A stretch of DNA of 64,000 bases from an uncultured Pelagibacteraceae bacterium (GTDB lineage Bacteria > Pseudomonadota > Alphaproteobacteria > Pelagibacterales > Pelagibacteraceae), in NCBI GenBank assembly GCA_902625715.1, contig CACOCP010000001.1:1-64000 (forward strand). Direction: 5' to 3'. Made by a program: the position numbers and the translations under genes. Under the pieces are notes generated by a model. That model saw only the letters and a list, made by a program, of their open reading frames with translations. It had not been told where the DNA came from and did not search any database. Positions 5,062 through 22,853 of this stretch are shown piece by piece (within the stretch, counting starts at the first letter, position 1; each line of letters begins with the position of its first letter).

Positions 5062-5422
5062 ACTGCCAGATAAATGACTTATCACTTTAAAAAATTAAAG
5101 AGGAAAGTCCGGGCTCTACAAAGACACAGTGCCAGTTAACGACTGGCGGGGGAGACCCCAGGGATAGTGCCACAGAAAATAAACCGCCTTATCAAGGCAA
5201 GGGTGAAAAGGTGTGGTAAGAGCACACCGGCTAAGTTGGTAACAGCTAGCGCATGGAAAACCCCACTGAGAGCAAGACTGAGTAGAGATGACATTGTTAG
5301 AAATAACTAAAAGCAGTCTTTGGCTAGTCATCAGGGTTAGTTGCTTGAGCTTTAAAGTGATTTAAAGCCTAGATAAATGATAAGTTTTAACGACAGAACC
5401 CGGCTTATAGTTTATCTGGCAA
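5062..5422 (+). ncRNA. rnpB: RNase P RNA component (M1 RNA, bacterial type A)
   Basis: Catalytic RNA that matures the 5' ends of tRNAs. The universally conserved block GAGGAAAGTCCGGGCTC lies at about 5100-5116, and the matching 3' block CAGAACCCGGCTTATAG at about 5394-5410. The outer P1 helix is visible: 5065-5074 pairs with 5411-5420 over 10 bases. Internal conserved elements such as the GCCACAGAAA-type segment are present, and the total of about 360 bases is normal. It fills most of the gap between the amidase gene and mraZ. Confidence 0.96.
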
Positions 5423-5489
5423 TAATTATTTCAATCTAAAAATAGTATTTATTAAAGTCTTGTATGAGATTTTCATGGTTTATTTTCTA

Positions 5490-5518
5490 TTGAAAATAGT
5501 ATTAAAAACCCATAATAT
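5490..5518 (+). promoter_or_regulatory. Candidate sigma-70 promoter of the dcw cluster (PmraZ)
   Basis: TTGAAA at 5490-5495 and TAATAT at 5513-5518 are separated by exactly 17 bases. Transcription would start near 5525, about 35 bases before the mraZ start at 5561. The -10 box sits between the first and second of three CCCA repeats, so a protein bound to them would block or modulate polymerase. Confidence 0.65.
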
Positions 5519-5532
5519 CCCATATATTCCCA
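5509..5532 (+). promoter_or_regulatory. Putative MraZ operator: three CCCA repeats at 10-bp spacing
   Basis: CCCA occurs at 5509-5512, 5519-5522 and 5529-5532, exactly one helical turn apart; on the minus strand these read TGGG. In E. coli, MraZ represses its own operon by binding three TGGGN repeats separated by 5-base spacers, the same 10-bp period. Here the repeats are in the opposite orientation relative to mraZ and overlap the -10 box and start point. The match in number, spacing and place is seen directly; binding by this MraZ is inferred. Confidence 0.6.
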
Positions 5533-5560
5533 AATATGGAATTATTAAAATTATATAAAA

Positions 5561-6016
5561 ATGTTTCTATCTACTTACGAAAACAAACTAGACAAAAAAG
5601 GGAGAGTTTCTGTGCCTGCTCCTTTTAGATCATATTTGTCAAATCTTGGGTATAATGGAATAGTTTGTTTCCCATCTTTCAATCATTCATCAATCGAGGC
5701 TTGGCCACAAGATAGAATAGAAAAAATATCAAATGCAATAGATTCATTAGATCCCTTTGAAGAAAAAAAGGATTATTTTGCAACATCAATTTTATCAGAA
5801 AGTATAAATCTACAATTTGATAGTGAAGGCCGTATTGCACTAACAAAAAAATTACTAAAACATTCGAAAATTAGAAACAGCATACTTTTCGTTGGTCAAG
5901 GAAAAACATTTCAAATATGGGAACCAACTTCTTTTGAAAAATTTAGGGTAAACGCTAGAAAAAAATCAAACATAAATAGAAACAGCCTTAAATGGGAAAA
6001 AAAACTTAATAACTAA
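5561..6016 (+). CDS. mraZ: Transcriptional regulator MraZ
   Basis: DNA-binding protein of the AbrB-like fold that opens the division and cell-wall cluster and, in E. coli, represses it. The 151-residue product has the two tandem MraZ half-domains: the first starts FLSTYENKLDKKGRVSVPAPFR (residue 2 on), and the second contains INLQFDSEGRIALTKKLL near residue 85. The middle has the family FVGQGKTFQIWEP element. Length matches the family. It is 12 bases ahead of ftsZ and is preceded by a candidate promoter and operator. Confidence 0.95.
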   Translation: MFLSTYENKLDKKGRVSVPAPFRSYLSNLGYNGIVCFPSFNHSSIEAWPQDRIEKISNAIDSLDPFEEKKDYFATSILSESINLQFDSEGRIALTKKLLKHSKIRNSILFVGQGKTFQIWEPTSFEKFRVNARKKSNINRNSLKWEKKLNN

Positions 6017-6027
6017 AAGGGGGATAA

Positions 6028-7455
6028 ATGACAATAAATTTTAAAACACCAGACATAAAAGAGCTAAAACCAAGAATATTAGTTCTTGGAGTTGGAGGAG
6101 CTGGAGGAAACGCAATTAACGGGATGATTGAATCTGGTCTTCAAGGCGTTGAATTTATTGCTGTTAATACAGATGCACAAGATTTAAGACTAAGTAAAGC
6201 TCAAGCAAAAATACAAATGGGTTTAAACCTCACAAAAGGTTTAGGAGCAGGTGCAAAGTTAGATATAGGTGAAGCATCAGCTGATGAATCTTTAAATGAA
6301 ATTATAAATGTATTGCAAGGTTCAAACATGGTTTTCATAACTGCAGGAATGGGTGGTGGAACTGGAACTGGAGCTGCACATGTAATTGCAAGAGCTGCAA
6401 AAGAATTAAATATTTTAACAGTAGGCGTAGTTACTCTTCCTTTTTTATATGAAGGTCCATCAAGAATGAGAAAAGCTCAACAAGGTTTAGAAGAACTAAG
6501 AAAACATGTTGATACAATAATTGTAGTTCCAAACCAAAACTTGTTTAAAATTGCAAGCGAGCAAACTACTTTCGAAGAGTCTTTTGAGCTATCGAATGAT
6601 GTTTTGTTACATGGGGTTCAAAGTATTACAGATCTAATGGTCAGACCGGGTTTAATAAATTTAGACTTTGCAGATGTCGAGACAGTTATGAGTTCAATGG
6701 GTAAAGCAATGATGGGTACTGGTCAAGCGGAGGGCGAAGGTAGAGCGGTAAAAGCTGCTGAAATGGCAATTAATAATCCCCTAATTGATGATTACACATT
6801 AAAAGGTGCAAAAGGTTTACTTGTTAACATAACTGGAGGAAAAGATTTAAAACTGTTTGAGGTAGACGAAGCTGTGAACAAAGTAAGAGCTGAAGTTGAT
6901 CCAGAGGCAGAACTTATTATTGGAGCAATTACAGATGAAAATTTAGATGGACTAATGAGAGTATCAATTGTTGCAACATCACTTGATGGTCAACAACCTG
7001 AACCAAAATCAGTCATCAATATGGTACACAGAATACAAAATAGAAATCCTGGTTATACAGATTTTTCTAATACAGGTTCATCTCAATCATTTACATTTTC
7101 AAATCCAACTAATTCAATAATTACTAATGGAGCAAATGCGCTTAAAATTGAAGAAGATATAAAAAGTGAAAGTTTAAATGTTAGTTCAAATGAGATGGAA
7201 ACTTATCAAGAAAATTCTAGTGAAAAAGAGACTTTTGAAAGTCAAGAGGTAAAAAACAGTTCAAATACATTGGAGAATGATTTTTCATCAAATGGTCTTG
7301 AGAATTTTAAATTTAATGAAGAAGAAACTCCTGAACTTTTTAATTCTGATACTGATACGATGAATGAAGAAAGTTCAACTAAATCAGAGGGAGATCAAAT
7401 TTCCGAAGAAGATGATCTAGAAATACCAGCATTTTTGAGAAGACAAAAAAATTAA
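6028..7455 (+). CDS. ftsZ: Cell division protein FtsZ
   Basis: Tubulin-like GTPase that polymerises into the division ring. The 475-residue product has the GTP-binding core from about residue 14 ([19 protein letters not shown]), the tubulin signature [11 protein letters not shown] near residue 110, and the T7 loop [11 protein letters not shown] near residue 210. An acidic unstructured linker covers about 335-460, and the C-terminal tail EIPAFLRRQ binds FtsA and other partners. A strong ribosome site (GGGGG at 6019-6023) precedes the ATG. It lies between mraZ and rsmH, not after ftsA as in the usual dcw order. Confidence 0.98.
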
Positions 7456-7473: not shown

Positions 7474-8475
7474 ATGAATGCCACCATAAATCTGGAAAAA
7501 AATCATTTTCCAGTTTTGCTAAATGAATTAATTAGCATTATTTCCCCTCTTTATGGTGGCACATTTATAGATTGCACCTTAGGTCAAGGTGGATATTCAA
7601 AAGAAATATTAAAAACAAAATCAAATAAAGTAATTGCTTTAGATAGAGATCCGGACGTTTTGCAGATTGCAAAAAAAATAGAAAATCAGAATAAAAATCG
7701 ATTTAACTTTTTTAATAGTAAATTTTCTGAAATTGATAAATTAAATATTAAAGATAATGATCTTAAAGCTGTGATATTTGATTTAGGTTACTCTTTAAAT
7801 CAGATTTTAGATTTTAAAAAAGGGTTATCGTTTCAAAGCACTGGAAAATTAGATATGAGATTGGGTTTAAATCAGTTTTCATGTGATGATGTAATTTCAA
7901 ATATTTCTGAAAAGAGTTTAAATAAAATTTTTAAAATATTTGGTGAGGAAAAAAACTCAAAATTGATTGCAAGAAGAATAGTTCAAAATAGAAATAAAAA
8001 TAAACTAAAGACTGAAGATTTAGTCAATATTATTGCAGAAATTAAAAAGTATAAGTTTTCTAGAACAAATCCATCAACAAAAATTTTTCAAGCATTACGT
8101 ATTTATATTAATAAAGAGATAAGTGAATTGATTAATGGATTAATATATTCATTCAAGATTCTACCAGTTGGAGGTATGATTGTTGTAGTAACTTTTCATT
8201 CAATAGAAGATAAAATTGTAAAATTTTTTTTTAAAAATTATTCTGACAAAAAAAATTCCTCACGATATGCACCAAATGTAATAAAAAATAATTGTTTAAA
8301 ATTAAAAAATAATAAACCAATTGTTCCTAGTAATGACGAAATAAAGATTAATCCTGCATCAAGATCAGCAAAACTTAGATACGCTATTAAAACTGATGAA
8401 AATGATAATTTTAATGAATTGCATGAAAAATTTAATTACTTAATTGAGACTGAGAATTTAAGTTATAATTCATGA
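7474..8475 (+). CDS. rsmH: 16S rRNA (cytosine-1402-N4)-methyltransferase RsmH (MraW)
   Basis: SAM-dependent enzyme that methylates N4 of C1402 in the 30S decoding centre. The 333-residue product has the typical start HFPVLLNELI near residue 11, the SAM-binding loop FIDCTLGQGGYSKEIL, the ALDRDPDVL acidic element, VIFDLGYSLNQIL, TGKLDMRL, and the C-terminal TFHSIEDKIVKFFFK and NPASRSAKLRYA motifs. Length is normal. The stop overlaps the ftsL start as ATGA (8472-8475), which implies coupled translation. Confidence 0.96.
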   Translation: MNATINLEKNHFPVLLNELISIISPLYGGTFIDCTLGQGGYSKEILKTKSNKVIALDRDPDVLQIAKKIENQNKNRFNFFNSKFSEIDKLNIKDNDLKAVIFDLGYSLNQILDFKKGLSFQSTGKLDMRLGLNQFSCDDVISNISEKSLNKIFKIFGEEKNSKLIARRIVQNRNKNKLKTEDLVNIIAEIKKYKFSRTNPSTKIFQALRIYINKEISELINGLIYSFKILPVGGMIVVVTFHSIEDKIVKFFFKNYSDKKNSSRYAPNVIKNNCLKLKNNKPIVPSNDEIKINPASRSAKLRYAIKTDENDNFNELHEKFNYLIETENLSYNS

Positions 8476-8759
8476 GAAAATTAATTTTTTTAATCCCTGT
8501 TATTTTTTTAATATTGGCAACAACTTTAACTAAAAACTCAACAAAGCAACTAGATAAAAAAATATTTGAAACAAAAGAAAATATAAGAGCCTTAGAAAAT
8601 CGGCTAGAGCTGGTACTTTTAGATTATAATTTTCTCACTTCTCCAAAAAAATTAATGGAATATCAAACAAAATTTTTTGAAAATAACCTAATTCAATTAA
8701 AAATTAGCAACATTAAAAATTTAGAAGATTTAAATAATAAGATAATAAACAATGAGTGA
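8472..8759 (+). CDS. ftsL: FtsL-like cell division protein
   Basis: FtsL is a small bitopic membrane protein that joins FtsB and FtsQ in the divisome and activates FtsWI. The 95-residue product has one membrane segment at about residues 3-20, followed by a heptad-like charged helix (residues 25-60) with LDKKIFETKENIRALENRLELVLLDYNFLTSP, matching the coiled coil and the conserved L.Y..L element of the family. Sequence identity to FtsL is always low, so the call relies on topology and its position between rsmH and ftsI. It overlaps both neighbours. Confidence 0.8.
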   Translation: MRKLIFLIPVIFLILATTLTKNSTKQLDKKIFETKENIRALENRLELVLLDYNFLTSPKKLMEYQTKFFENNLIQLKISNIKNLEDLNNKIINNE

Positions 8760-10365
8760 ATTTAAGTTTGTTGAAAAGAAATCAAATTTAAAAATCTCCT
8801 TTGAGAGAATTGCTTTTATATTTTTTATTTTTTTTATTATTTCCTTGTTGTTTTCAGCTAAAATTTTATTTCTTAGTTATAATGATCTGCCTGAACAAAA
8901 AATTATAAAAAAAAAAGAAAATTTCAGATCTAGTATTATTGATAGAGAAGGTGATATTTTGGCTAAATCAGTAAGAATAACTAACTTAGGAATAGATCCA
9001 AAGTTAGTTGTCGATAAAAAAAAATTATTATTATCTCTAAAATTATTATTTCCTAATAAAGACTTCAAAGATCAAATAAATGGAAAAAAATTTTTTTATG
9101 TAAAAAAAAAAATATCACCAGAAAAATTAGAAGCAGTTTTAAAATTAGGAGAAAAGGCATTTAGATTAGAAGAAAAAATTGCAAGGGTGTATCCAAACGG
9201 AGAATTATTTAGCCATATTATTGGTCAAATAGATAATGATAATAATGGTATATCTGGATTAGAAAAAAGTTTTGATTATGAGTTAAGGTCTTCAAAGGAG
9301 GCTTTAAAACTTACTGTTGATAAAGAACTGCAATACTTAATTAGAGAAGAGCTGGCAAAGGCTGAAGATATTTTCAAAAACGTTGGAAGTGCAGCAATAT
9401 TAATGAATATTCATAATGGAGAAATACTATCAATGATTTCTCTTCCAGATTTTGATTTAAACAAAAGAAAAAATCTTGAGGATTTAAAATATATAAATAG
9501 AGCAACGAAGGGAGTTTATGAACTTGGATCAGTTTTTAAAACATTCACTTTAGCTGCTGGAATAAATTATGATGTAGTTAGCCCAGAAACGGAATTTACC
9601 AATCTAAAAAAAAAAATTACTTGTAATAAAAATTCTATAGAGGAGTATGACAATAAAATTCCTTCAAATTTAACCGCAGAAGAAATTTTAATAAGATCTG
9701 GAAATATAGGATCAGTTCGCATCGCCCAAAAGGTAGGAATAGATAATTTTGAGGATTTTTTAGTAAAAATTGGAATATTAAACCAACTTACATTTGATAC
9801 GGATGAAATTGGAACTACACAAATTGGAAAATGGGGTAAATGTAAACTTGCTACAGTTGCATTTGGACATGGTATAGCTACTACACTTTTACAACTCACA
9901 AAAGGTTACTCAATTGTTACTAATGGTGGATACGAAATAAATCCGACATTGATTAAAAAAAAATATGAAAACGATAAAATAAGATTAATCAATCAAGATG
10001 TTTCAAATCTTATTAATCCAATATTAAGAAAAATAGTATCAACAAAAGAGGGAACAGCTGGATTTGCAAATGTAGCTGGGTTTGAAGTTGGAGGAAAAAC
10101 AGGTACTGCTGATCAACCAGCAGATGGGGAATATTCAAAAAAAAAAATAAATACTTTTGCTTCTGTTTTCCCTGCCTCAGATCCAAAGTTTGCTTTAGTG
10201 GTAATGTTAGATGAACCAAAACCAAATAAAGAGTTTGTTTATAATTATAGAGATGGAAGACAACCTTATAAAGGAAATTGGAGAAACACCGCTGGATGGA
10301 CTACCGTTTGGGTTACAGGTCAAATAATTGATAAAATTGGGCCAATTTTAGCCACAAAATATTAA
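8752..10365 (+). CDS. ftsI: Septal peptidoglycan transpeptidase FtsI (PBP3)
   Basis: Class B penicillin-binding protein that crosslinks septal peptidoglycan together with FtsW. The 537-residue product has one N-terminal membrane segment (about residues 18-40), the dimerisation/pedestal domain, and the transpeptidase domain. The active-site motifs are SVFK with the catalytic Ser near residue 260, SGN near 315 and KTGTA near 449. It overlaps ftsL by 8 bases and is 8 bases ahead of the murE-murF fusion. Two 11-base A runs lie in the coding region (9102-9112 and 9606-9616). Confidence 0.96.
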   Translation: MSEFKFVEKKSNLKISFERIAFIFFIFFIISLLFSAKILFLSYNDLPEQKIIKKKENFRSSIIDREGDILAKSVRITNLGIDPKLVVDKKKLLLSLKLLFPNKDFKDQINGKKFFYVKKKISPEKLEAVLKLGEKAFRLEEKIARVYPNGELFSHIIGQIDNDNNGISGLEKSFDYELRSSKEALKLTVDKELQYLIREELAKAEDIFKNVGSAAILMNIHNGEILSMISLPDFDLNKRKNLEDLKYINRATKGVYELGSVFKTFTLAAGINYDVVSPETEFTNLKKKITCNKNSIEEYDNKIPSNLTAEEILIRSGNIGSVRIAQKVGIDNFEDFLVKIGILNQLTFDTDEIGTTQIGKWGKCKLATVAFGHGIATTLLQLTKGYSIVTNGGYEINPTLIKKKYENDKIRLINQDVSNLINPILRKIVSTKEGTAGFANVAGFEVGGKTGTADQPADGEYSKKKINTFASVFPASDPKFALVVMLDEPKPNKEFVYNYRDGRQPYKGNWRNTAGWTTVWVTGQIIDKIGPILATKY

Positions 10366-10373
10366 GAGCGTAA

Positions 10374-13196
10374 ATGATGTTACTTAAAGATTATCTTCCA
10401 AATATAAATAAAAAATTTAAAAATTTAAATTTCTCAGGCTTAGCATTTAATTCGAAAGAGGTAAAAAAAAATTACATATTTATTGCAATTAAAGGAGATA
10501 GGTTTGATGGAAACAATTATATAAATGATGCAATCAAAAATGGCGCAAAAATTATTATTTCTTCAAAATTTAAAGATCAAATTAAAAATAATATTATTTA
10601 TTTAAAACAAAAAAATCCAAGACAAATTTTGTCTCATTTGTCTTCACAAATTTTTAAAAAAAAACCACAAAATCTAATTGCTGTTACAGGTACTAATGGA
10701 AAAACTTCAATTGCAAATTTTTATTATCAAATTTTAAAAAAAAACAAAAAAAAGGTAGCATCTTTCGGTACCCTTGGAATTAGCGGAAAGAAAAAAATCG
10801 AAAACACATCAAATACTACTTTTGATCCAATAAAAATTGGAAAGAATTTAAATTATTTAGAAAAAAAAAAAATTAATAATGTGATATTAGAAGCATCAAG
10901 TCATGGGTTAAAACAACATCGGCTTGATGGATTAAAATTTGACGTTGGAATATTTACAAATCTAAGCAGAGATCATTTAGATTATCACAAAACCTTAAAA
11001 GATTATTTAAATGCAAAATTAATTTTGTTTAAGAAATTGATGAAAAAAGGATCTTTTGCGATTTTTGATGAAGACATAAAATATGCAAAAATTTTAAAAA
11101 ATATTTGTAAAAAAAATAAAATTAAAAAATTTACAATTGGAGAATTAAATGGCGACTTATTAATTGAAAAATATTCTATCATTGATAACAAACAAGAATT
11201 AACATTTTCATTTAATAAAAAAAAATATAATTTAAAAACTCAATTGATTGGCAAGATCCAAATTAAAAATCTTTTAATGTCAATTCTAGCCGCACATAAA
11301 AGTAATATAAAATTGGATAATATTCTTAAATCTGTAGAAAATATTAAAGCTGTACCAGGTCGTTTTGAAGAAATTGGGAATTTTAAAAATAATTCAATAG
11401 CTATTTTAGATTATGCTCACACACCTGATGCTCTTAAGACCTGTGTTTTAAACATTAAAGAGCAGTTTAAACATCGAAAAGTAAATTTAGTTTTTGGTTG
11501 CGGGGGAGATAGGGATAAACCAAAGAGATCAATTATGGGCAAAATTGCTAATGATTTGTGTGATAAAATATATTTAACTGACGACAATCCTAGAACAGAA
11601 AGTCCAAAAAAAATAAGAAACAATATCAAAGGTAAGATTTTAAAATCAAAATTAGTTGAAATTCCTTCAAGAAAAAAAGCAATTGAAAAGGCAATAAAAG
11701 ATTTAAGATCTGATGAGATATTGATTGTGGCAGGGAAAGGTCACGAAAATTACCAAGAATACAAAACTAAGAAATTTTTTTCAGATAAAGCTTGTATGAT
11801 TGATGCTATTCATAAAAAAAATAAAAAATTATCTAAGAATTTAAAGGTAAATATCATTAATGAATACTTAAATATAAAAATTAATAATAACTTTTTAATT
11901 AATAAAGCATCTATTAATTCAAAAGATATAAAAAAAAATAATATTTTTTTTGGTATTAAAGGAAAGAATATTGATGGAAACAAGTTTGCCGATGAAGCTC
12001 TTAAGAAAAAAGCATCTATTTGTATATTAGAAAAAAATTATTCAAAAAAAAATCCAAGAAAAATATTTGTAAAAGATACACTTAAAACTTTTTCAAATTT
12101 ATCATGTATAATACGCAAATCATTAGGAACACCCATTGTCGCAATTACAGGATCTGCTGGTAAAACTTCTTTAAAAGAACTAATTGGTCAGAGTCTTAAT
12201 ACTTTAATACCAACTTCATATTCAAAAAAATCATTCAACAATCAATATGGAGTTCCATTGTCGTTATTTAATATTGATATGAAGCATAAAATTGGAGTAT
12301 TTGAAATTGGAATGGATAAGAAAGGTGAAATTCAAAAGTTGTCTAATTTAATCCGACCAGATATTGGAGTAATAACAAATATATCTTATGCTCATATTAA
12401 AAACTTTAATTCAATTAAGGGAATTGCAGAAGCAAAAGCCGAAATTATAAAAAATATCACTAGTGGAGGTAGGATCATTTTAAATGCAGATGATGTTTTT
12501 TATAATTTTTTTAAAGAGAGGGCATTAAATAGAGGATTAAAGATAATTTCATTTAGTATTAAAAATAAATCAGATTTTCAATTTATAGATAATAAAAAAA
12601 ATAGAATAAAAAAAATTCTTGAAATAAAATCAAATAATAAAAAATATAAATTTAAAATAAATAAAGATTTATATAATTATAAGCTTAATTTAGCAGCAGC
12701 CATTGCAGTGATTTCAAATTTCGTAAAAATCGATAAATTAAATAACAATATATTCAAGGATTACATTCATCCATCAGGCAGAGGTAACCTAAAAAAAATT
12801 AAAATTAAAAAAAAGACAATCCAATTAATTGATGAAAGCTATAATTCAAACCCATTATCACTGAAATTTTCTATTGAAAAATTTGATAAAATTCAAACAC
12901 GAAATGCTAAATATTTGCTGCTCGGAGATATGTTAGAGCTTGGTAAATTTTCAAAAAAATTGCACTCTGATATTGCAAGTAATATTAATAAAACTCAAAT
13001 ATCCAAAGTATATGTCTATGGCAAAGATATCATTTATACTTTCAACAAATTAAGAACACAAAAGAAAGGCAAAATCTTTAAATCTAATAGTCAAATATTA
13101 AGATTTATAAATAATGAAATTAATAATAATGATTATCTTATGGTGAAAGGATCAAATTCAACTGGATTAAACGAAATAATAAAAAAATTAAATTAA
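10374..13196 (+). CDS. murEF: Fused MurE-MurF: UDP-MurNAc-tripeptide synthetase / D-Ala-D-Ala adding ligase
   Basis: A single 940-residue frame joins two consecutive Mur ligases. Residues 1 to about 478 are MurE: P-loop VTGTNGKTS near 106, and DDNPR at 403-407, the signature for meso-diaminopimelate addition. Residues about 485-940 are MurF: its own N-terminal substrate domain (SINSKDIKKNNIFFGIKG), P-loop ITGSAGKTSLKE near 592, NNQYGVPLSL, and the C-terminal DESYNSNPLSLKFSIE. No stop or new start with a ribosome site separates the halves. The product should perform two sequential cytoplasmic steps in muropeptide synthesis. A 12-base A run sits at 10861-10872 in the MurE half. Confidence 0.96.
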   Translation: MMLLKDYLPNINKKFKNLNFSGLAFNSKEVKKNYIFIAIKGDRFDGNNYINDAIKNGAKIIISSKFKDQIKNNIIYLKQKNPRQILSHLSSQIFKKKPQNLIAVTGTNGKTSIANFYYQILKKNKKKVASFGTLGISGKKKIENTSNTTFDPIKIGKNLNYLEKKKINNVILEASSHGLKQHRLDGLKFDVGIFTNLSRDHLDYHKTLKDYLNAKLILFKKLMKKGSFAIFDEDIKYAKILKNICKKNKIKKFTIGELNGDLLIEKYSIIDNKQELTFSFNKKKYNLKTQLIGKIQIKNLLMSILAAHKSNIKLDNILKSVENIKAVPGRFEEIGNFKNNSIAILDYAHTPDALKTCVLNIKEQFKHRKVNLVFGCGGDRDKPKRSIMGKIANDLCDKIYLTDDNPRTESPKKIRNNIKGKILKSKLVEIPSRKKAIEKAIKDLRSDEILIVAGKGHENYQEYKTKKFFSDKACMIDAIHKKNKKLSKNLKVNIINEYLNIKINNNFLINKASINSKDIKKNNIFFGIKGKNIDGNKFADEALKKKASICILEKNYSKKNPRKIFVKDTLKTFSNLSCIIRKSLGTPIVAITGSAGKTSLKELIGQSLNTLIPTSYSKKSFNNQYGVPLSLFNIDMKHKIGVFEIGMDKKGEIQKLSNLIRPDIGVITNISYAHIKNFNSIKGIAEAKAEIIKNITSGGRIILNADDVFYNFFKERALNRGLKIISFSIKNKSDFQFIDNKKNRIKKILEIKSNNKKYKFKINKDLYNYKLNLAAAIAVISNFVKIDKLNNNIFKDYIHPSGRGNLKKIKIKKKTIQLIDESYNSNPLSLKFSIEKFDKIQTRNAKYLLLGDMLELGKFSKKLHSDIASNINKTQISKVYVYGKDIIYTFNKLRTQKKGKIFKSNSQILRFINNEINNNDYLMVKGSNSTGLNEIIKKLN

Positions 13197-13199
13197 TTT

Positions 13200-14285
13200 A
13201 TGCTTTATATTTTATTTTCAAATTTAGTTGATACTTTTAGTTTTTTTAATGTCTTTAAATATCTGACTGTCCGAACAGGATTATCAATGTTTACAGCGAT
13301 GATAGTAGTATTTATAGCTGGTGGACCATTTATAAGATATTTCTCATCAAAAAAAATACACAATCCGATCCGAGATGATGGACCAGATGAACATATAGTA
13401 AAAAAAATTGGAACACCTACAATGGGAGGGTTATTAATATTGTTTGGTGTTTTTTCGGGTGTCCTTTTGTGGGGAGATTTATCAAATCCTTATAATTGGT
13501 TTCTTATTTATATTGCTGGTACTTTTGGACTGTTAGGTGCCTATGATGATTACAAAAAAATAAAATTTAACAACTCAAGTGGCGTTTCTTCTAAATTTAA
13601 AATTTCTATTCAGATATTTTTAGCAGTTGTTGGGATATTAATTTTATATTATTCAGGTGTATCAGATGAAATAGAAAATCTATATTTTCCATTTTTAAAA
13701 AATTTAGTTATTAATTTAGGCTGGTTTTTTATACCATTTTATATTTTTGTACTTGTAGGCTCATCTAATGCTGTGAACTTAACCGATGGTTTAGATGGCT
13801 TAGCAACAGTTCCAGTGATACTTGTAGCCTCATGCTTTGCTTTGATAAGCTATGTTTCTGGAAATATGGTTTTTTCAGGTTATTTGCAAATTCCTTACAT
13901 AGAGGGTGTTGGAGAGGCCTCAATATTTTGTGGCGCAATAATAGGAGCGTGCCTCGGTTTTCTTTGGTTTAATGCACCACCTGCAAAAATTTTTATGGGT
14001 GACACTGGGTCACTTTCTTTAGGCGGGTCATTAGGGGCTGTTGGAATAATAACAAAACACGAAATTGTTTTAGCTATTACAGGTGGTTTGTTTGTTTTGG
14101 AGGCTATATCAGTAATTGTGCAAGTTATTTCATTTAAATTGACTGGAAAAAGAATTTTTAGAATGGCTCCAATACATCATCATTTTGAGAAAAAAGGATG
14201 GCCAGAGTCAACTGTTGTAATTAGATTTTGGATTATATCTATAATTTTAGCATTAATTGGAATTGCAACCCTAAAATTAAGATAA
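13200..14285 (+). CDS. mraY: Phospho-N-acetylmuramoyl-pentapeptide transferase MraY
   Basis: Integral membrane enzyme that transfers phospho-MurNAc-pentapeptide to undecaprenyl phosphate, forming lipid I. The 361-residue product has about ten membrane segments and the family motifs GTPTMGG near residue 75, GAYDDYKK near 113, NLTDGLDGLA near 193, NAPPAKIFMGDTGSLSLG near 260 and APIHHHFEKKGWPE near 322. Length is typical. It starts 3 bases after the murEF stop, and its stop shares one base with the murD start. Confidence 0.97.
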   Translation: MLYILFSNLVDTFSFFNVFKYLTVRTGLSMFTAMIVVFIAGGPFIRYFSSKKIHNPIRDDGPDEHIVKKIGTPTMGGLLILFGVFSGVLLWGDLSNPYNWFLIYIAGTFGLLGAYDDYKKIKFNNSSGVSSKFKISIQIFLAVVGILILYYSGVSDEIENLYFPFLKNLVINLGWFFIPFYIFVLVGSSNAVNLTDGLDGLATVPVILVASCFALISYVSGNMVFSGYLQIPYIEGVGEASIFCGAIIGACLGFLWFNAPPAKIFMGDTGSLSLGGSLGAVGIITKHEIVLAITGGLFVLEAISVIVQVISFKLTGKRIFRMAPIHHHFEKKGWPESTVVIRFWIISIILALIGIATLKLR

Positions 14286-15583
14286 TGATATTAAAAGAAA
14301 ATTTTTTTTTTAAAAAAAAAATTTTAATTTATGGATTAGGAAAATCTGGAAGTGCTTGTTTTGACTTTTTAAATAGAAATAATAACCTCTTAGTTTTTGA
14401 TGATAATTTTTCTATAAAAAATAAAAAATATATTAATTACTTTTTTTCTCCAGATAGAATAAAAAAAATAAATTTTGATTATATTTTTTTAAGCCCTGGA
14501 ATTGATATAAATAACTGTGTTTTATCTAAGTTTTTAAAAAAAAATAAAAATAAAATAATTAGTGAATTAGATATTTTTTATAAAACATATCCAAAATTAA
14601 ATAAAATTACAATTACAGGAACAAATGGAAAATCAACTACATCTAAATTAATTTACGAAGTTTTAAAATACCATAAAAAAGATGTTAGATTAGTGGGAAA
14701 TATTGGAAATCCAATTTTAAAAGAAAAAAATTTAAAAAAAAACACAATTTTTGTTATTGAGGCTTCATCCTATCAAATCGACTACAGTAAATATTTTGAA
14801 ACTAATATAGCTCTAATTTTGAATATAGCCCCTGATCATTTAGAAAGACATAAAACTTTTCAAAATTATATAAATGCTAAATTAAAATTAATAAAAAAAC
14901 AGAGCAAAAAATCAATTGCGCTTATCGAACAAAATAATAGACTAATTAGAGATATTTTGAAATCGCAAAAGGTTAAATCTAAAATAAAATATGTAGACTT
15001 TAAAGAATATAACAGCTTTTATAAAAAAATAAATAATAATTATTTTAAAAATTTATCAAATATAAAAAATTTATCATTTGTTTTAAAGCTTTCTAATATC
15101 TTAAAACTTGATAAATCAAAAATTTTAAAAGTAGTAAATAGTTTCAAAGGATTAAATTATAGACAACAGATTGTTTATAATAAAAAAAAATTTTTGATAA
15201 TTAATGACTCAAAATCAACATCATTTTCATCAACAGTGCCATTGTTACAATCATACGAAAATATCTATTGGATTTTAGGCGGTTTAGCAAAGAAGGGTGA
15301 TAAACTAAATTTAAATAAAAAATATTTTAAGAAAATAAAAGCTTATGTCTATGGAACTAACAAAGCATTTTTTTTAAATGTATTGAAAAATAAATGCAGA
15401 TTGTATTCATCAAAAAATCTAAAGGATATTCTTTCTAAATTATTTTTAGATATTAAAAAAAATAAAAATGGAAAAAAAACTATTTTATTCAGCCCTGCAG
15501 CAGCTTCATTTGATCAGTTTAAAAATTTTGAGGAAAGAGGAAGATATTTTAATCAACTGCTTAAAAAATATATAAATGCATAG
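14285..15583 (+). CDS. murD: UDP-N-acetylmuramoylalanine--D-glutamate ligase MurD
   Basis: Adds D-glutamate to UDP-MurNAc-L-alanine in the cytoplasm. The frame is open from 14228, but the ATG at 14285 is preferred because it overlaps the mraY stop by one base (TAATG) and starts just before the Rossmann-like domain (ILIYGLGKSG). This gives 432 residues, normal for MurD. The P-loop ITGTNGKSTTS is near residue 110, followed by SSYQIDY and NIAPDHLERH, and the C-terminal domain has SKSTS and LFSPAAASFDQF. Codons 5-14 lie inside a perfect A/T palindrome (14298-14325). Confidence 0.95.
   Translation: MILKENFFFKKKILIYGLGKSGSACFDFLNRNNNLLVFDDNFSIKNKKYINYFFSPDRIKKINFDYIFLSPGIDINNCVLSKFLKKNKNKIISELDIFYKTYPKLNKITITGTNGKSTTSKLIYEVLKYHKKDVRLVGNIGNPILKEKNLKKNTIFVIEASSYQIDYSKYFETNIALILNIAPDHLERHKTFQNYINAKLKLIKKQSKKSIALIEQNNRLIRDILKSQKVKSKIKYVDFKEYNSFYKKINNNYFKNLSNIKNLSFVLKLSNILKLDKSKILKVVNSFKGLNYRQQIVYNKKKFLIINDSKSTSFSSTVPLLQSYENIYWILGGLAKKGDKLNLNKKYFKKIKAYVYGTNKAFFLNVLKNKCRLYSSKNLKDILSKLFLDIKKNKNGKKTILFSPAAASFDQFKNFEERGRYFNQLLKKYINA
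14298..14325. repeat. 28-bp perfect palindrome of homopolymer runs (A4-T10-A10-T4) at the 5' end of murD
   Basis: The stretch reads four A, ten T, ten A, four T, so it is exactly self-complementary. It encodes Asn-Phe-Phe-Phe-Lys-Lys-Lys-Ile within the first 15 codons of murD, 13 bases after the start codon. In RNA the U10 and A10 runs could pair into a hairpin; in DNA the run is likely curved and prone to polymerase slippage. Confidence 0.9.
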
Positions 15584-16688
15584 ATTTTTTGAAAATTTTT
15601 ATGATTGGTGGAAGAACATAGATAAATTTATCCTTTTTCTTATTTCAGTTTTATTTTTTTTAGGTCTTTTCTTCTCTTTAGTATCGACATCTTTAATTGC
15701 TTCTGACAAACTTGATACGAACTCATATTACTTTTTTATCAAACACTTAATATTTATTGGGTTGGGAGCTTCAATACTATTTTTTCTCTCAATTTTAAAA
15801 GAAGATATCTTGATTAAAATCTCATTAATTCTTTTTTTTATCACACTAGTGTTTCTTTTAATGGTTCCATTTGTGGGTATAGAAGTAAAAGGATCAAAAA
15901 GATGGCTTGATTTAGGGGTTTTACCACGCTTTCAACCTATAGAATTGTTAAAACCATACTTTATAGTTTTTGTCTCAATTATGCTCTGTTTAAATAAAAA
16001 TATTTTTTACAAATATTTATTAAGTGGCATTGTTCTTTTGCCAGTTATACTTCTTTTAATCTCACAGCCCGATCTTGGCCAGACGTTATTAATTACCATG
16101 GTATGGTTAACACTAATATTTGTTTCAGGAATAAACATATATTTATTCTTTTTGTTTTTTATTTTTACAATATCAATATCAACATATTTAATATTTTTTG
16201 TATCAAAGTTTGAATACATAAAAATAAGACTTTTATCTTTTTTAAATACTAGTAGTGGAAATAATTACCAAGCGGATCGAGCAAGTGATGCAATTTCTGG
16301 TGGAGGATTTTTTGGTAGAGGGATCGGTGAAGGAACATTAAATTCAAAAGTTCCTGAAGCGCACACGGATTATATAATCTCTGTTATATCAGAAGAGTTT
16401 GGAGCTATTATTGTAATTTTGATAATGATTTTATATTTAGTCTTCTCTTATAATGTGATCAAAAAAATTAATAATTCTATTTCAGAAAAAAATAAATTAA
16501 TATTAATTGGATGTGTAACATTGATATTGTTGCAAACATTTGTACATGTTGGAGTAAATATTAGATTGTTGCCTACTACTGGTATGACTCTGCCATTTTT
16601 AAGTTATGGTGGCTCATCTATAATTAGTACAGCTTTAGTTTCAGGTATAATACTTAACTTAACAAAAAGAAGATTGTCAGAAGTATGA
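15576..16688 (+). CDS. ftsW: SEDS peptidoglycan glycosyltransferase FtsW
   Basis: Membrane glycosyltransferase that polymerises septal glycan strands from lipid II in partnership with FtsI. The 370-residue product has about ten membrane segments and the SEDS motifs GSKRWLDLGVLPRFQPIELLKPYFI near residue 107, ISQPDLGQTLLI near 161, and GGGFFGRGIGEG, PEAHTDYIISVISEEFG and LPFLSYGGSSIIS toward the C-terminus. RodA is the main alternative, but the dcw location supports FtsW. It overlaps murD by 8 bases and murG by 4. Confidence 0.95.
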   Translation: MHRFFENFYDWWKNIDKFILFLISVLFFLGLFFSLVSTSLIASDKLDTNSYYFFIKHLIFIGLGASILFFLSILKEDILIKISLILFFITLVFLLMVPFVGIEVKGSKRWLDLGVLPRFQPIELLKPYFIVFVSIMLCLNKNIFYKYLLSGIVLLPVILLLISQPDLGQTLLITMVWLTLIFVSGINIYLFFLFFIFTISISTYLIFFVSKFEYIKIRLLSFLNTSSGNNYQADRASDAISGGGFFGRGIGEGTLNSKVPEAHTDYIISVISEEFGAIIVILIMILYLVFSYNVIKKINNSISEKNKLILIGCVTLILLQTFVHVGVNIRLLPTTGMTLPFLSYGGSSIISTALVSGIILNLTKRRLSEV

Positions 16689-17749
16689 AAAAAATTTTAA
16701 TCGTAACGGGTGGCTCAGGTGGCCATGTAATACCCGCTCTTACAATTTTTGATCATTTAAAAAATAATTTTGATGCTCGTATAGCCACAGATGAAAGGGG
16801 TACTAAATTTATAAATAAACAAGATTACGAATATAATTTAATAAAAGTACCAAATTTATTTAGTAATATTTGGTCTCTACCATTTAAATTATTTAAATTT
16901 ATTTATGTAATGTTCGAGTCATATAATTACTTAAAAAAAAATAATATAAGCAAAATTATAAGCACAGGTGGGTATATGTCCTTTCCATTTTGCTTTGCAT
17001 CTTTATTTTTAAATTGTGAGATTTTTTTATTTGAACCAAATAGTGTGATTGGACGGTCAAATAAATATATGATTAAAATTGCAAAAAAGATTTTATGTTA
17101 CGATAAAAACTTGAAATTATTTCCCAAAAAATATTTTGGTAAAATTGCATTGATTGCTCCAATTTTGAGAAAACAAATTTATGAAGCAGAAAAAAATCCT
17201 CAGCATTTACAAAAAAAAGTTATTAAAATTTTAATAGTTGGAGGAAGTCAAGGATCTATTTTTTTTGATAAACAAATAACAAAATACATTTTGGAGTTAT
17301 CAAAAGAACTAAACATTGCAGTTAAGCAACAAGTTTTAAATATAAATGAAAGAAAAAGAATTAATGATTATTATGAAAAATCTAATTTTAAATATGATTT
17401 ATTTGATTTTGATGAAAATCTTCATACAAAAATTAATGATATAGATATCGCAATCACAAGATCAGGTGCTTCTGCAATTGCAGAATTAGCACATTTAAAC
17501 ATACCTTTTTTAGCAATACCTTTCCCATTTGCTAAAGATAATCATCAATTTTATAACGCCAAGGTATACGAGGAAAATAATTGTTGTTGGTTAATAAAAC
17601 AAAACGATCTTAACAGCATAAATTTTATAAATTTATTTAAAGATAAGAAAGATCATGAAGAAAAAAAAAATAATTTATCAAAAATTACTAACCAAAACAG
17701 CTGGAATAATGTAAATAAAAAATTGATAGACCTTATCAATGAAAATTAA
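16685..17749 (+). CDS. murG: UDP-GlcNAc:lipid I N-acetylglucosaminyltransferase MurG
   Basis: Peripheral membrane GT28 enzyme that adds GlcNAc to lipid I, giving lipid II. The 354-residue product has the glycine-rich first loop TGGSGGHVIPAL at residues 8-19, GGYMSFPFCFA near 98, the second glycine loop GGSQGS near 185, and the UDP-GlcNAc-binding SGASAIAELAHLNIPFLAIPFPFAKDNHQFYNA near 258-290. Length is typical. The start overlaps the ftsW stop (ATGA), and the end overlaps murC by 11 bases. Confidence 0.96.
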   Translation: MKKILIVTGGSGGHVIPALTIFDHLKNNFDARIATDERGTKFINKQDYEYNLIKVPNLFSNIWSLPFKLFKFIYVMFESYNYLKKNNISKIISTGGYMSFPFCFASLFLNCEIFLFEPNSVIGRSNKYMIKIAKKILCYDKNLKLFPKKYFGKIALIAPILRKQIYEAEKNPQHLQKKVIKILIVGGSQGSIFFDKQITKYILELSKELNIAVKQQVLNINERKRINDYYEKSNFKYDLFDFDENLHTKINDIDIAITRSGASAIAELAHLNIPFLAIPFPFAKDNHQFYNAKVYEENNCCWLIKQNDLNSINFINLFKDKKDHEEKKNNLSKITNQNSWNNVNKKLIDLINEN

Positions 17750-19118
17750 TTTAGGAAAAAGAGAGCTAATTCACTTTATTGGAATAGGCGGAATAGGTAT
17801 GAGTGGCTTGGCTTTAATAATGAACGGTCTTGGTTTCAGAGTTCAAGGTAGTGATATTTCAGAAAATAAGAATATTGATAGATTAAAACAAAAAAAAATA
17901 CCAATCTTCTTAAATCATACCAAAAAAAATTTAAAAAATAGTACTGTTCTTGTAATTTCAACAGCAATAAAAAAGAATAATCCTGAATTAGTTCAAGCAA
18001 AAAAATTAAAGTTACCAATATATACAAGAGGAGAAATGCTTGGTCATATTGTTTCTTTAATGAAAAATATTGTAGTCACAGGATCTCATGGAAAAACAAC
18101 TACAACATCATTACTGTCTAGTATTTTTGGAAGCGCTAAATTGGATCCAACCATAATTAATGGAGGAGTTTTAAATTCATTTGGTAACTCAGCTAAACTT
18201 GGAAAAAGTAATTGGTGCTTAATCGAGTCTGATGAGTCTGATGGAAGCTTTTTAAAAATACCTTTTACATATTCTATAATTACAAATATTGATGCCGAAC
18301 ACCTGGATTTTTATAAATCTCTTGAAAATTTGAAAAAAAATTTTTCAAGCTTTATAGAAAAAACTCCCTCACTAGGGAAAACCTTTTTATGTATTGATGA
18401 TAAAAATATTAAAGAAGTAATCAAGAAAACAAACAATAAAAATTTTTATACATATGGATTATCAAAGGATGCAAACTTTAATATAACAAATACTTTACAA
18501 AAAGAAAAATACTCTGAATTTAATTTAAAAATAAAAATACCTGGCAGTAAAAAAAAAATAAAAAAAATAAAGATACCATTGATTGGTATGCATAATATCA
18601 AAAATGCTGCTTCATGTGCTGCTGTTGCTTTTTTAATTGGGATAAATGATAAGACTATCAAAGAAGGTCTAAAAAATTTTAAAGGGGTGCAAAGAAGATT
18701 TAATTTTCTTTTTAAAAAAAATAATGCATTATTTTTTGATGATTATGCTCACCATCCAACAGAAATATCTTCTGTACTAGAGGGAGTAAAAGAAGTTTAT
18801 AAGAAAAAGGAAATTATATGCATATTTCAGCCACACAGAATATCTAGAGTAAAAAACCTTAAATTTGAATTTTCTAGATCCTTTAAAAAAGCAGATACCG
18901 TAATTCTTTGTCCAATATATAAAGCAAGTGAAAATATTAAACTCGGTTTTGCATATGAAAAATTCGCAAAATTAATAATTAAAAATTCAAATGTTAGTCT
19001 TATTAAAATTGAGAATGAAGATAGTCTAAAAAAATTAATTAAACAAACGGGCTATGGTGAAAAAATTTATATAGGAATGGGCGCTGGAAGTATTTCTAAT
19101 TGGATGAGGAATTTATAA
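17739..19118 (+). CDS. murC: UDP-N-acetylmuramate--L-alanine ligase MurC
   Basis: Adds the first amino acid, L-alanine, to UDP-MurNAc. The 459-residue product has the N-terminal HFIGIGGIGMSGLA loop near residue 13, the ATP P-loop VTGSHGKTTTTS near 111, the central ESDESDGSFL and NIDAEHLDFY motifs, and DDYAHHPTEI near 334, the MurC hallmark. Length is normal. It overlaps murG by 11 bases and ends 9 bases before murB. Confidence 0.97.
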   Translation: MKINLGKRELIHFIGIGGIGMSGLALIMNGLGFRVQGSDISENKNIDRLKQKKIPIFLNHTKKNLKNSTVLVISTAIKKNNPELVQAKKLKLPIYTRGEMLGHIVSLMKNIVVTGSHGKTTTTSLLSSIFGSAKLDPTIINGGVLNSFGNSAKLGKSNWCLIESDESDGSFLKIPFTYSIITNIDAEHLDFYKSLENLKKNFSSFIEKTPSLGKTFLCIDDKNIKEVIKKTNNKNFYTYGLSKDANFNITNTLQKEKYSEFNLKIKIPGSKKKIKKIKIPLIGMHNIKNAASCAAVAFLIGINDKTIKEGLKNFKGVQRRFNFLFKKNNALFFDDYAHHPTEISSVLEGVKEVYKKKEIICIFQPHRISRVKNLKFEFSRSFKKADTVILCPIYKASENIKLGFAYEKFAKLIIKNSNVSLIKIENEDSLKKLIKQTGYGEKIYIGMGAGSISNWMRNL

Positions 19119-19127
19119 AATAAATTA

Positions 19128-20033
19128 ATGCAAATTGATGACTTAAAAAAACTGCCAATTAATGATGATGAGCTTTATTTTGATTATGATTTAAAAAAAT
19201 TGAATTGGTTTAATATTGGAGGAAAAACAAAAGTTTTTTTTAAGGCAAAATCTCTAACTGGATTAGTAAATTTTTTAAAGACCTTCAAAAAAAGAGGAAA
19301 AATATTCGTTTTAGGGGCAGGCTCAAATGTATTGATTTCAGATGATGATTTCAATGGAGTGGTCATTAAGCTCGGTAAAAATTTTCAAAATCTCTCAATT
19401 TTGAACGAAAACTTAGTGATAGCTGGATGCGGAATATCTCAAAAAAGATTATCTGAATTTTCTAAAGAAAATAGTTTAACAGGAATGGAATTCATGTCCT
19501 GTATCCCTGGTTCAGTTGGAGGTGGAATTAGAATGAACTCTGGATGTTTTGATAATGAATTCAAAGATGTATTAGTTTCTGTTCAATGTATTGATTTTGA
19601 TGGATCAGTAAAAATGATAAATAAAAATAATATCAAATTTAAGTATAGAGGTTCTGATTTATCAAAAGATCTAATTTTTCTAAGCGCGACGTTTGAAGGA
19701 AAAAAAACTGAGCAAAATAAAATTTTACAAACGATGGAACAAATGAAAAATAGTAAAGAAAAAGCTCAACCTACTAAAATTAAAACTGGAGGAAGCACAT
19801 TCAAAAATCCCATAGATCAAACTTCAAAAAAAGTTTGGGAGTTAATAAATGAGTCAGTGCCAAATTCTTTAAGTTTTGGAGATGCAATTATATCAGAAAA
19901 ACATATGAATTTTTTTGTAAATAAGAAAGATGCAAGCTTTAAAGATATGAAAAAATTAATTTTTACAGTTCAAGAAAAAGTTCAGAAAAAAACTGGTATT
20001 AATATCAATCCAGAAATAATTATTGTGGAATGA
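19128..20033 (+). CDS. murB: UDP-N-acetylenolpyruvoylglucosamine reductase MurB
   Basis: FAD- and NADPH-dependent enzyme that reduces the enolpyruvyl group to make UDP-MurNAc. The 301-residue product shows NIGGKTKVFF near residue 29, the FAD loop LGAGSNVLISD near 62, GMEFMSCIPGSVGGGIRMNSGC near 119, FKYRGSDL, and GGSTFKNP near 221 with the Ser proton donor, ending with NPEIIIVE. Its length and architecture fit a type II MurB, as expected in alphaproteobacteria. The stop overlaps ddl by 4 bases. Confidence 0.96.
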   Translation: MQIDDLKKLPINDDELYFDYDLKKLNWFNIGGKTKVFFKAKSLTGLVNFLKTFKKRGKIFVLGAGSNVLISDDDFNGVVIKLGKNFQNLSILNENLVIAGCGISQKRLSEFSKENSLTGMEFMSCIPGSVGGGIRMNSGCFDNEFKDVLVSVQCIDFDGSVKMINKNNIKFKYRGSDLSKDLIFLSATFEGKKTEQNKILQTMEQMKNSKEKAQPTKIKTGGSTFKNPIDQTSKKVWELINESVPNSLSFGDAIISEKHMNFFVNKKDASFKDMKKLIFTVQEKVQKKTGININPEIIIVE

Positions 20034-20950
20034 AGAAAAAAATTTTAATTATCGCAGGCGGTTATTCAAATGAAAGAGAAATAAGTATAAAAACTGCAAG
20101 AAGTGTTTACTTAGAATTAAAAAAAAATAAAAAATACATAATAGATGTTGCGGAACCTGACGGAAATTTTGTAAAAAAAATAAATACTTTTAAACCTGAT
20201 ATAGCTTTTAATTTACTTCACGGAAGATACGGAGAGGATGGCTATATACAGGCAATACTAGAATCTCAAAAGATTAATTATACACACTCTGGCGTATTAT
20301 CCTCATCTTTAGCTATAGACAAAGAAATTTCAAAAGAAATATATATTAAAAATAACATTCTTACTCCTAAGTATATTAAATTTAAATTTAGAGATTTTAA
20401 TGAAAAAAAAATTATTCAAGAAGTTGACAAAAAACTTAAATTTCCTGTTGTAATTAAACCAATTAATGAAGGATCAAGTGTAAGTGTTTATATATGTAAA
20501 AAAAATAATTTCCTAAATAATTTGAAAAAATTGAAACATTATGATGAAATATTAATTGAAAAATTTATTCCAGGTAGAGAAATACAGGTAGCTATTCTTG
20601 GAAATGAAAAATTAGGTGCAATTGAACTTAAGCCAAAAAGAATGTTTTATGATTATGAAGCAAAATATAATCCAAAAGCAAAAACAGAACATATAATACC
20701 TGTAAACATAAGTAAAAAAAATTACGACGAAGTTACATCTATAGCTTTAAAAGCACATAAATTATTAAAATGTAGAGGTGTAACCAGGTCAGATTTTAGA
20801 TTTAATGGAAATAAATTCTACCTCTTGGAGACTAATACTCAACCAGGAATGACAGCTTTATCGTTAGTTCCAGAAATAGCTAAATATAGAAATATATCAT
20901 TTGCACAATTAATAAATAAAATTTTATTAGATGCGTCTATCAATAAATAA
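20030..20950 (+). CDS. ddl: D-alanine--D-alanine ligase
   Basis: ATP-grasp enzyme that makes the D-Ala-D-Ala dipeptide used by the MurF half of the upstream fusion. The 306-residue product has GGYSNEREIS near residue 10, FNLLHGRYGEDGYIQ near 63, HSGVLSSSLAIDKEISK, FPVVIKPINEGSSVSVY, EKFIPGREIQVAIL, and the metal-binding FYLLETNTQPGMT near 265. Length is typical of DdlB. It overlaps murB by 4 bases and ftsQ by 20. Confidence 0.96.
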   Translation: MKKKILIIAGGYSNEREISIKTARSVYLELKKNKKYIIDVAEPDGNFVKKINTFKPDIAFNLLHGRYGEDGYIQAILESQKINYTHSGVLSSSLAIDKEISKEIYIKNNILTPKYIKFKFRDFNEKKIIQEVDKKLKFPVVIKPINEGSSVSVYICKKNNFLNNLKKLKHYDEILIEKFIPGREIQVAILGNEKLGAIELKPKRMFYDYEAKYNPKAKTEHIIPVNISKKNYDEVTSIALKAHKLLKCRGVTRSDFRFNGNKFYLLETNTQPGMTALSLVPEIAKYRNISFAQLINKILLDASINK

Positions 20951-21620: not shown

Positions 21621-21627
21621 AGTAAAC

Positions 21628-22791: not shown

Positions 22792-22853
22792 TTGTATTTT
22801 GTTGTAATAATACTTGTATGTTTAATTAATCTACCATTTATTATAAGTCTTGA

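Follow-up and report, generated by a model that had tools for sequence, protein, structure and literature searches.

An inverted array of probable MraZ boxes embedded in the promoter of the mraZ–ftsZ operon of SAR11 bacteria

SAR11 bacteria contain few transcription factors and we know of no easy genetics for these organisms. How they might set the level of FtsZ is a question raised by the start of the dcw cluster in a stretch of 64,000 nucleotides from an uncultured Pelagibacteraceae bacterium (contig CACOCP010000001.1, positions 1 to 64,000, in the following termed the window), where a first-pass annotation of the DNA had proposed that three CCCA words ahead of mraZ form an operator by which MraZ controls its own promoter and with it ftsZ. 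Autoregulation of dcw via MraZ boxes is a known kind of system, and among the matches listed in our literature search we found no account of the control of FtsZ supply in SAR11. We thus became interested in whether the array in the window is an operator of this kind and in how it relates to the genes that follow.

The promoter region in question is preceded by rnpB, which encodes the RNA of RNase P (5066–5423, + strand; Rfam RF00010, 292.3 bits) and is separated by 137 bases with a GC content of 18% (5424–5560) from mraZ (5561–6016, + strand), whose ATG at position 5561 was read from the sequence. The latter encodes a protein of 151 amino acids with two MraZ domains carrying DxxGR motifs (PF02381, 71.5 bits at a cut-off of 23) and it is followed on the same strand by ftsZ as second gene of the operon (6028–7455; PF00091 and PF12327), by rsmH, also termed mraW (7474–8475; PF01795, 264.4 bits), and by the remaining dcw cluster up to lpxC (8472–23774), as defined by open reading frames and profile matches. 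Within this cluster, MurEF, MraY, MurC, MurB, Ddl and LpxC score above the curated NCBIfam cut-offs, FtsW and FtsA are the best match though below the NCBIfam cut-off, FtsI is a penicillin-binding protein assigned from matches below cut-off, and FtsL, FtsQ, MurD and MurG were named from gene order only. MurE and MurF are fused in a single open reading frame of 940 amino acids (10374–13196), which exceeds the cut-offs of both TIGR01085 and TIGR01143 and stays below the cut-off of the bifunctional model NF008896. In SAR11, rnpB and ftsZ (5066–7455 in the window) are neighbours on the same strand, with mraZ and the putative operator in between. The ratio of ftsZ transcripts to RNase P RNA serves as an index of growth and changes between day and night in Pelagibacterales, as described in a 2026 study whose accessible portions do not mention mraZ (PMC13349992).

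Just upstream of mraZ, the annotated promoter TTGAAA-N17-TAATAT is present on the + strand, with an off-consensus –35 element at 5490–5495, which was read from the sequence and is also placed by the profile of promoters from the same genus described below, and a –10 element at 5513–5518, 17 bases apart. The same pair was recovered in a promoter scan with 9/12 matches. Such promoter-like hexamer pairs are common, with five found between positions 4500 and 6500 compared to 9.5 expected in shuffled sequences, and the promoter alone thus proves nothing. Unlike the hexamer pair, the triple CCCA is a significant part of the site. Its words, which correspond to TGGG on the opposite strand, are found on the + strand at 5509–5512 (box 1), 5519–5522 (box 2) and 5529–5532 (box 3) and are supported by the sequence, by shuffles and by a scan of genomes of the same genus. 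Their starts at 5509, 5519 and 5529 define a period of exactly 10 bp (CCCA-N6-CCCA-N6-CCCA), in full agreement with the spacing that had been claimed. The pattern matches once in the 64-kb window and in none of 100 dinucleotide shuffles, with about 1.4e-4 matches per window expected for independent bases. No other copies of CCCA and not a single TGGG are found between 5424 and 5560. TAATAT makes up the entire 6-bp spacer between boxes 1 and 2, both of which abut the –10 element, and box 3 is located at, or a few bases past, the expected start of transcription as inferred from the hexamers. The initial description of words covering –10 and +1 thus does not hold for the –10 element, which is flanked instead, and for +1 it has to be adjusted to a box located a few bases past the expected position.

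The resemblance of this arrangement to known MraZ sites is pronounced but not complete. Like these, the window contains at least three direct repeats with a TGGG core, their period is exactly 10 bp, and they are located in the putative promoter of mraZ, with the gene directly downstream. It does not show the layout found in E. coli and Burkholderia cenocepacia, with the repeat core on the coding strand (TGGG in the former) downstream of the –10 element, which characterizes the examples known so far but is not part of a formal definition of a MraZ operator. In E. coli K-12, three TGGG words with starts separated by 10 bp are found on the coding strand, the first of them 43 nucleotides before the ATG of mraZ, and the comparison to E. 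coli made by the first-pass annotation therefore holds at the level of the sequence. MraZ boxes at this promoter are said to have been described by Eraso and colleagues in 2014.

Binding of MraZ to the repeats before E. coli mraZ has been reported (PMC7761207, PMC8475190; here and in the following, statements on studied MraZ systems refer to the accessible portions of the cited papers). SAR11 shares with E. coli the box word, the number of three copies, the period of 10 bp and the location at the beginning of the dcw cluster, immediately upstream of mraZ. The two differ in the strand carrying TGGG, which is the coding strand in E. coli and the opposite strand in SAR11, in the location of the site, which is downstream of the –10 element in E. 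coli (PMC7761207) while the boxes flank it in SAR11, and in the second gene, which is rsmH in the former and ftsZ in the latter. For B. cenocepacia, a fragment that carries 7-nucleotide repeats separated by 3-nucleotide spacers is shifted by purified MraZ, and the sequence was used to assign the exact site within it. These repeats share the period of 10 bp with SAR11 and overlap the dcw start site but, unlike the SAR11 array, there are four of them, located downstream of the –10 element and containing a GTG core (PMC7761207). Similarly, the site (AAAGTGKN3)3 in the mraZ promoter of Mollicutes consists of three repeats with a period of 10 bp, and the motif is unique in the chromosome of Mycoplasma genitalium, as is the SAR11 array in genomes of its genus, although the core is AAAGTG and the genes are arranged as mraZ-mraW-MG_223-ftsZ (PMC5282649, PMC8475190).

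The proposal of an operator had been made dependent on the conservation of the repeats in close relatives, and there it was supported. An exact triple is present in a single copy in each of 80 of the 101 genomes of the same genus, in which the reversed control pattern has no match. We detected mraZ in 81 of these genomes, and in 80 of the 81 loci the triple is located 19–51 bases upstream of the mraZ start on the strand of the gene and nowhere else in the 101 genomes. The sole mraZ-positive genome without a triple (G068) contains a contig that begins within the gene, with residue 7 of MraZ encoded at base 3. Among named SAR11 contigs, for which the best 80 were taken from at least 536 relatives and probably overlap with the set of 101 genomes, 79 contain the triple once and the exception starts 35 bases before mraZ with two boxes still visible.

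The promoter itself shows a related pattern of conservation. The sequence TTGAC is found near the –35 site in 79 of the 80 genus promoters, at a distance from box 1 of exactly 19 bases in 78 cases and of 18 bases in one. In a profile of the genus promoters, for which the 80 sequences were cut to 60 at less than 80% identity, the five positions of TTGAC contain 1.2–3.2 bits, positions 46–110 bases upstream of box 1 a mean of 0.06 bits, and the spacer between boxes 1 and 2 is nearly restricted to A and T. Since the promoters of the profile were picked by the exact CCCA pattern, the conservation of the CCCA columns is defined by the count of 80 in 81 loci and not by the profile. The –35 element TTGAAA of the window is found at the equivalent place in five of the 79 named contigs, which are those of its nearest relatives, and nearly all other SAR11 mraZ promoters contain TTGAC, which suggests a weaker basal promoter in the lineage of the window. 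In the leader, a GG located 29–30 bases downstream of the box 1 start (5538–5539 in the window) has its two positions kept in 46 and 49 of the 60 promoters; either base pairing with box 3 in the RNA or a contribution to a ribosome site is conceivable.

The 20 genomes of the genus in which mraZ was not detected do not contain the array either. As 19 of them (G001, G002, G006, G035, G046, G056, G078, G086 and others) also show no match for ftsZ, they are unusable as natural knock-outs and reflect missing assembly. One of the genomes without mraZ and ftsZ is estimated to be 97% complete, and the start of the dcw cluster seems to drop out of such assemblies as a whole.

Conservation of the array extends beyond the genus. 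Its presence in other genera of the Pelagibacteraceae was analyzed in 46 upstream regions fetched from 68 mraZ-positive genomes and covering twelve readable genera. Every region contains all three boxes, and none deviates by more than one mismatch: 23 of the arrays are exact and 23, from four genera, contain ACCA as box 1. TTGAC was not found in one of the 46 regions. Across the family, the –35 element is located 17, 18, 19 or 21 bases from box 1, while the period of the boxes remains constant at 10 bp. This sliding of the –35 element relative to boxes of fixed period argues for the array as an independent unit distinct from the promoter consensus. In the sister family, for which 20 upstream regions were fetched from 40 mraZ-positive genomes, at least three consecutive exact boxes are found in 19 regions, with five boxes in 12, four in five and three in two of them, two boxes are found in the remaining region, and 10 bp is the only period between 6 and 15 that reaches three copies.

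The same words are also found in Alphaproteobacteria outside the order, where we fetched 88 loci from 158 mraZ-positive genomes and dropped six of them with unrecognized start motif. Coding-strand CCCA words at a period of 10 bp are present in at least three copies in 49 and in at least two copies in 68 of the remaining 82 upstream regions, with the 14 regions that contain fewer than two boxes being defined by a scoring of exact words only. None of the 82 reaches three copies at any other period between 6 and 15, a mean of 0.000 of 82 reaches three after shuffling of the bases, and a single one contains three coding-strand TGGG words. The commonest spacer words in these arrays are of the form TGnTAT, representing the –10 region, and TTGACn, representing the –35 region, is also found as spacer, so that parts of the promoter are threaded between the boxes. 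The picture differs outside the class, where 22 of 31 loci (30 plus E. coli) were readable and nine were dropped due to an unrecognized start motif. Here, coding-strand TGGG is found in three copies in three loci and in two or more copies in ten (E. coli K-12 included), three CCCA words are found in none and two in two loci, and 12 loci contain neither a TGGG nor a CCCA array. Judged from these upstream regions, the strand of the array thus differs between Alphaproteobacteria and the other sampled loci with a visible array. The inversion relative to the gene noted in the first-pass annotation is therefore real, but it is neither special to this genome nor to SAR11, since it is usual in the sampled Alphaproteobacteria. 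As the array in these organisms overlies the promoter and is placed on the other strand, results from E. coli are not transferable unchanged.

We have also investigated how specific the pattern is with respect to the gene. In the genome containing the window, two-box sites elsewhere are at background, with six matches compared to five for the reversed control, and a search for a regulon beyond the operator by means of such sites did not find anything above this level. A genome-wide count by hand within the class found the triple in 117 of the 160 genomes matching TIGR00242 and in 11 of the 30 that do not match it, which shows that the pattern alone is unspecific in large genomes of the class. 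The 30 TIGR00242-negative genomes (20 listed and 10 obtained by elimination) include 28 that are also negative for PF02381. At least one of the 11 carriers of a triple in this group, G393, does have mraZ, where a five-box array led us to an open reading frame (L293, 2070–2624, G393:C36) that was confirmed as MraZ by PF02381 and for which the TIGR00242 search had no match. The array thus helps to locate mraZ, in this one example where the gene was not reported by the TIGR00242 search. A different case is provided by G397, a reduced genome of the class (0.8 Mb, 98% complete) with no mraZ detected by TIGR00242 or PF02381, which retains CCCATTGACGCCCA and one further phased CCCA ahead of an rsmH identified by Pfam. 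In this array (L294, 1690–2130, G397:C4, minus strand), three phased CCCA words surround TTGACG and the following box position contains TTTC. Its persistence without mraZ is not predicted by simple co-loss and may either reflect a recent loss of the gene or a second role of the CCCA words in this genome. A clean co-loss of array and mraZ was thus not shown in the class, where of the 28 genomes negative for both models only G397 had its arrays inspected (L294, L295).

Next to the array, the order of the genes behind it distinguishes the Pelagibacterales. To define this order, we asked which of ftsZ or rsmH comes first downstream of mraZ. It is ftsZ in 30 of 30 genus loci (from a total of 81), in all 80 named contigs, a set chosen as best among at least 536 relatives, in 26 of 26 loci of other genera of the family and in 16 of 16 loci of the sister family, with a usual gap of about 15 bases between the matches of mraZ and ftsZ in the genus and named sets. 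Outside the order it is rsmH in 57 of 59 loci, including 26 of 28 in the class and 31 of 31 outside the class, and neither of the two genes was found downstream of mraZ in the other two loci of the class. The assignment of ftsZ as second gene is thus valid for the window and for each of the loci read within the order. Within dcw clusters, ftsZ is normally located between ftsA and lpxC. In the window, ftsA (21628–22791) is followed by lpxC (22854–23774) with no ftsZ in between, and the genome containing the window (1.16 Mb, 88% complete) shows a single Tubulin/FtsZ match, which places the only ftsZ of the order behind the promoter that heads the dcw cluster. Five contigs of the sister family (L408, L409, L412, L413 and L414) terminate within ftsZ, about 1.2 kb downstream of mraZ. 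The complete ftsZ in L402 encodes a C-terminal linker with EPEPITEPEM-type repeats, and such repeats may break assemblies.

The protein encoded behind the promoter carries the hallmarks of MraZ. In the window it matches PF02381 twice, with 38 and 35.2 bits both exceeding the cut-off of 23, and TIGR00242 with 71.9 bits, which is below the curated cut-off of 98.35. Since the latter value is reached by none of 190 genomes of the class, it leaves out the sampled alphaproteobacterial MraZ proteins in general. Residues D11, G14, R15, D87, G90 and R91 are invariant in an alignment of six SAR11 MraZ sequences with E. coli MraZ, and the protein aligns with the solved MraZ structures 1n0e, 9qlr, 9qlg and 9sx6 over residues 1–133 to 1–135 of 151, with E-values of 1.9e-7 to 4.3e-7 in phmmer. 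A structure predicted from 23 SAR11 sequences showed a mean pLDDT of 42.8 and was set aside.

In light of these findings, we consider it highly probable that the array is the MraZ operator of the dcw operon in SAR11, inverted and embedded in the promoter, through which mraZ and ftsZ would be autorepressed. We infer the binding of MraZ and the sign of its effect from E. coli, Burkholderia and Mycoplasma. With one helical turn between them, all boxes are placed on the same face of the DNA. MraZ, as an oligomeric ring, would bind the three boxes via neighbouring subunits from one side of the helix, and in this state it would exclude RNA polymerase from the –10 region. Such exclusion would lower the expression of mraZ and ftsZ together, along with that of the genes further downstream, and thereby create negative feedback in which FtsZ is the first passenger.

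Other explanations have to be weighed against this operator. Chance repeats in AT-rich intergenic DNA can be rejected with virtual certainty, as the triple is absent from all 100 shuffles and present in 80 of 101 genus genomes, always before mraZ, and we found nothing in favour of such an origin. The CCCA words could also be intrinsic parts of the promoter, acting as spacer end, discriminator and initial transcribed sequence, or parts of the leader, with no regulator involved. They do coincide with such parts, the GG in the leader is conserved as well and the mraZ-less G397 keeps three CCCA words; nevertheless we regard this explanation as very unlikely in view of a –35 element that shifts by up to 4 bp relative to boxes whose period stays at 10 bp, the up to five boxes found in the sister family, and the confinement of the triple to mraZ in 101 genomes, which indicates that other promoters do not need it. 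It is equally hard to attribute the array to another alphaproteobacterial factor such as NtrX, CtrA or GcrA. NtrX was described to bind upstream of mraZ in Rhodobacter sphaeroides via a repeat given as GCAn9TGC (PMC7240162, accessible portions), but this repeat is absent from the region 5424–5560. The array is found solely before mraZ in the genus, and the same words with the same period precede mraZ in E. coli, leaving a highly improbable role for such factors. Also absent from the region 5424–5560 are TTAAn7TTAA, GANTC and TTATnCACA, which we take to be the words for CtrA, CcrM and DnaA.

A further explanation retains MraZ as the bound protein and assigns it the role of an activator or of a switch that depends on context. 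As inverted strand and a position over the –10 region are unlike the studied sites, the sign of the regulation could indeed differ. The boxes deviate in strand and position from E. coli and from the sampled loci of the phylum outside the class, they occupy a more upstream position with respect to the promoter than those of E. coli, and MraZ has been described as activator in mycoplasmas (PMC7761207). Conversely, boxes that abut the –10 element and extend past +1 would be expected to block the polymerase, and the deletion of mraZ in M. genitalium raised the transcripts of ftsZ (log2 +2.34) and mraW (log2 +3.02; PMC8475190). We thus consider activation unlikely, though still worth retaining since the opposite strand would allow for a different sign of control.

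Returning to autorepression as the preferred reading, the gene order of the Pelagibacterales might have a further consequence. It is conceivable, though we hold this view with some reserve, that ftsZ has moved in this order from its site at the end of the dcw cluster to the position behind mraZ and that the inverted operator interleaved with the promoter, the single one retained by MraZ in the entire genome, acts as a dedicated MraZ-FtsZ feedback device, which would set the level of FtsZ and with it division. If true, one regulator, one site and one operon would set division in a highly abundant group of ocean bacteria. For SAR11 this defines a concrete and testable circuit consisting of one regulator and one operator, with FtsZ as first target. 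In the literature searched, which mostly did not extend to subscription papers, we did not find a description of the inverted strand, of the threading of –35 and –10 elements between the boxes or of the mraZ-ftsZ order in Pelagibacterales.

The region behind the array shows additional variation in some sister genera. There, a AAGGAGGG-like ribosome site and an ATG directly after box 3 open a reading frame that overlaps the start of mraZ, in 11 of 12 checked loci (L085, L086, L087, L089, L090, L091, L093, L094, L095, L097 and L384). A longer MraZ start in some of these genera was considered and rejected, as the upstream ATG is out of frame. The frame contains 43–45 codons in the ten loci in which its end is present and encodes similar peptides, and such a leader peptide could be coupled to the translation of mraZ. 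In nine MraZ proteins of sister genera, the glycine of the first DxKGR motif is replaced, with the sequence reading LDKKWRV, LDKKRRV or LDKKMRV (L085, L087, L089, L090, L091, L093, L095, L097 and L101), and the array in front of these genes is intact.
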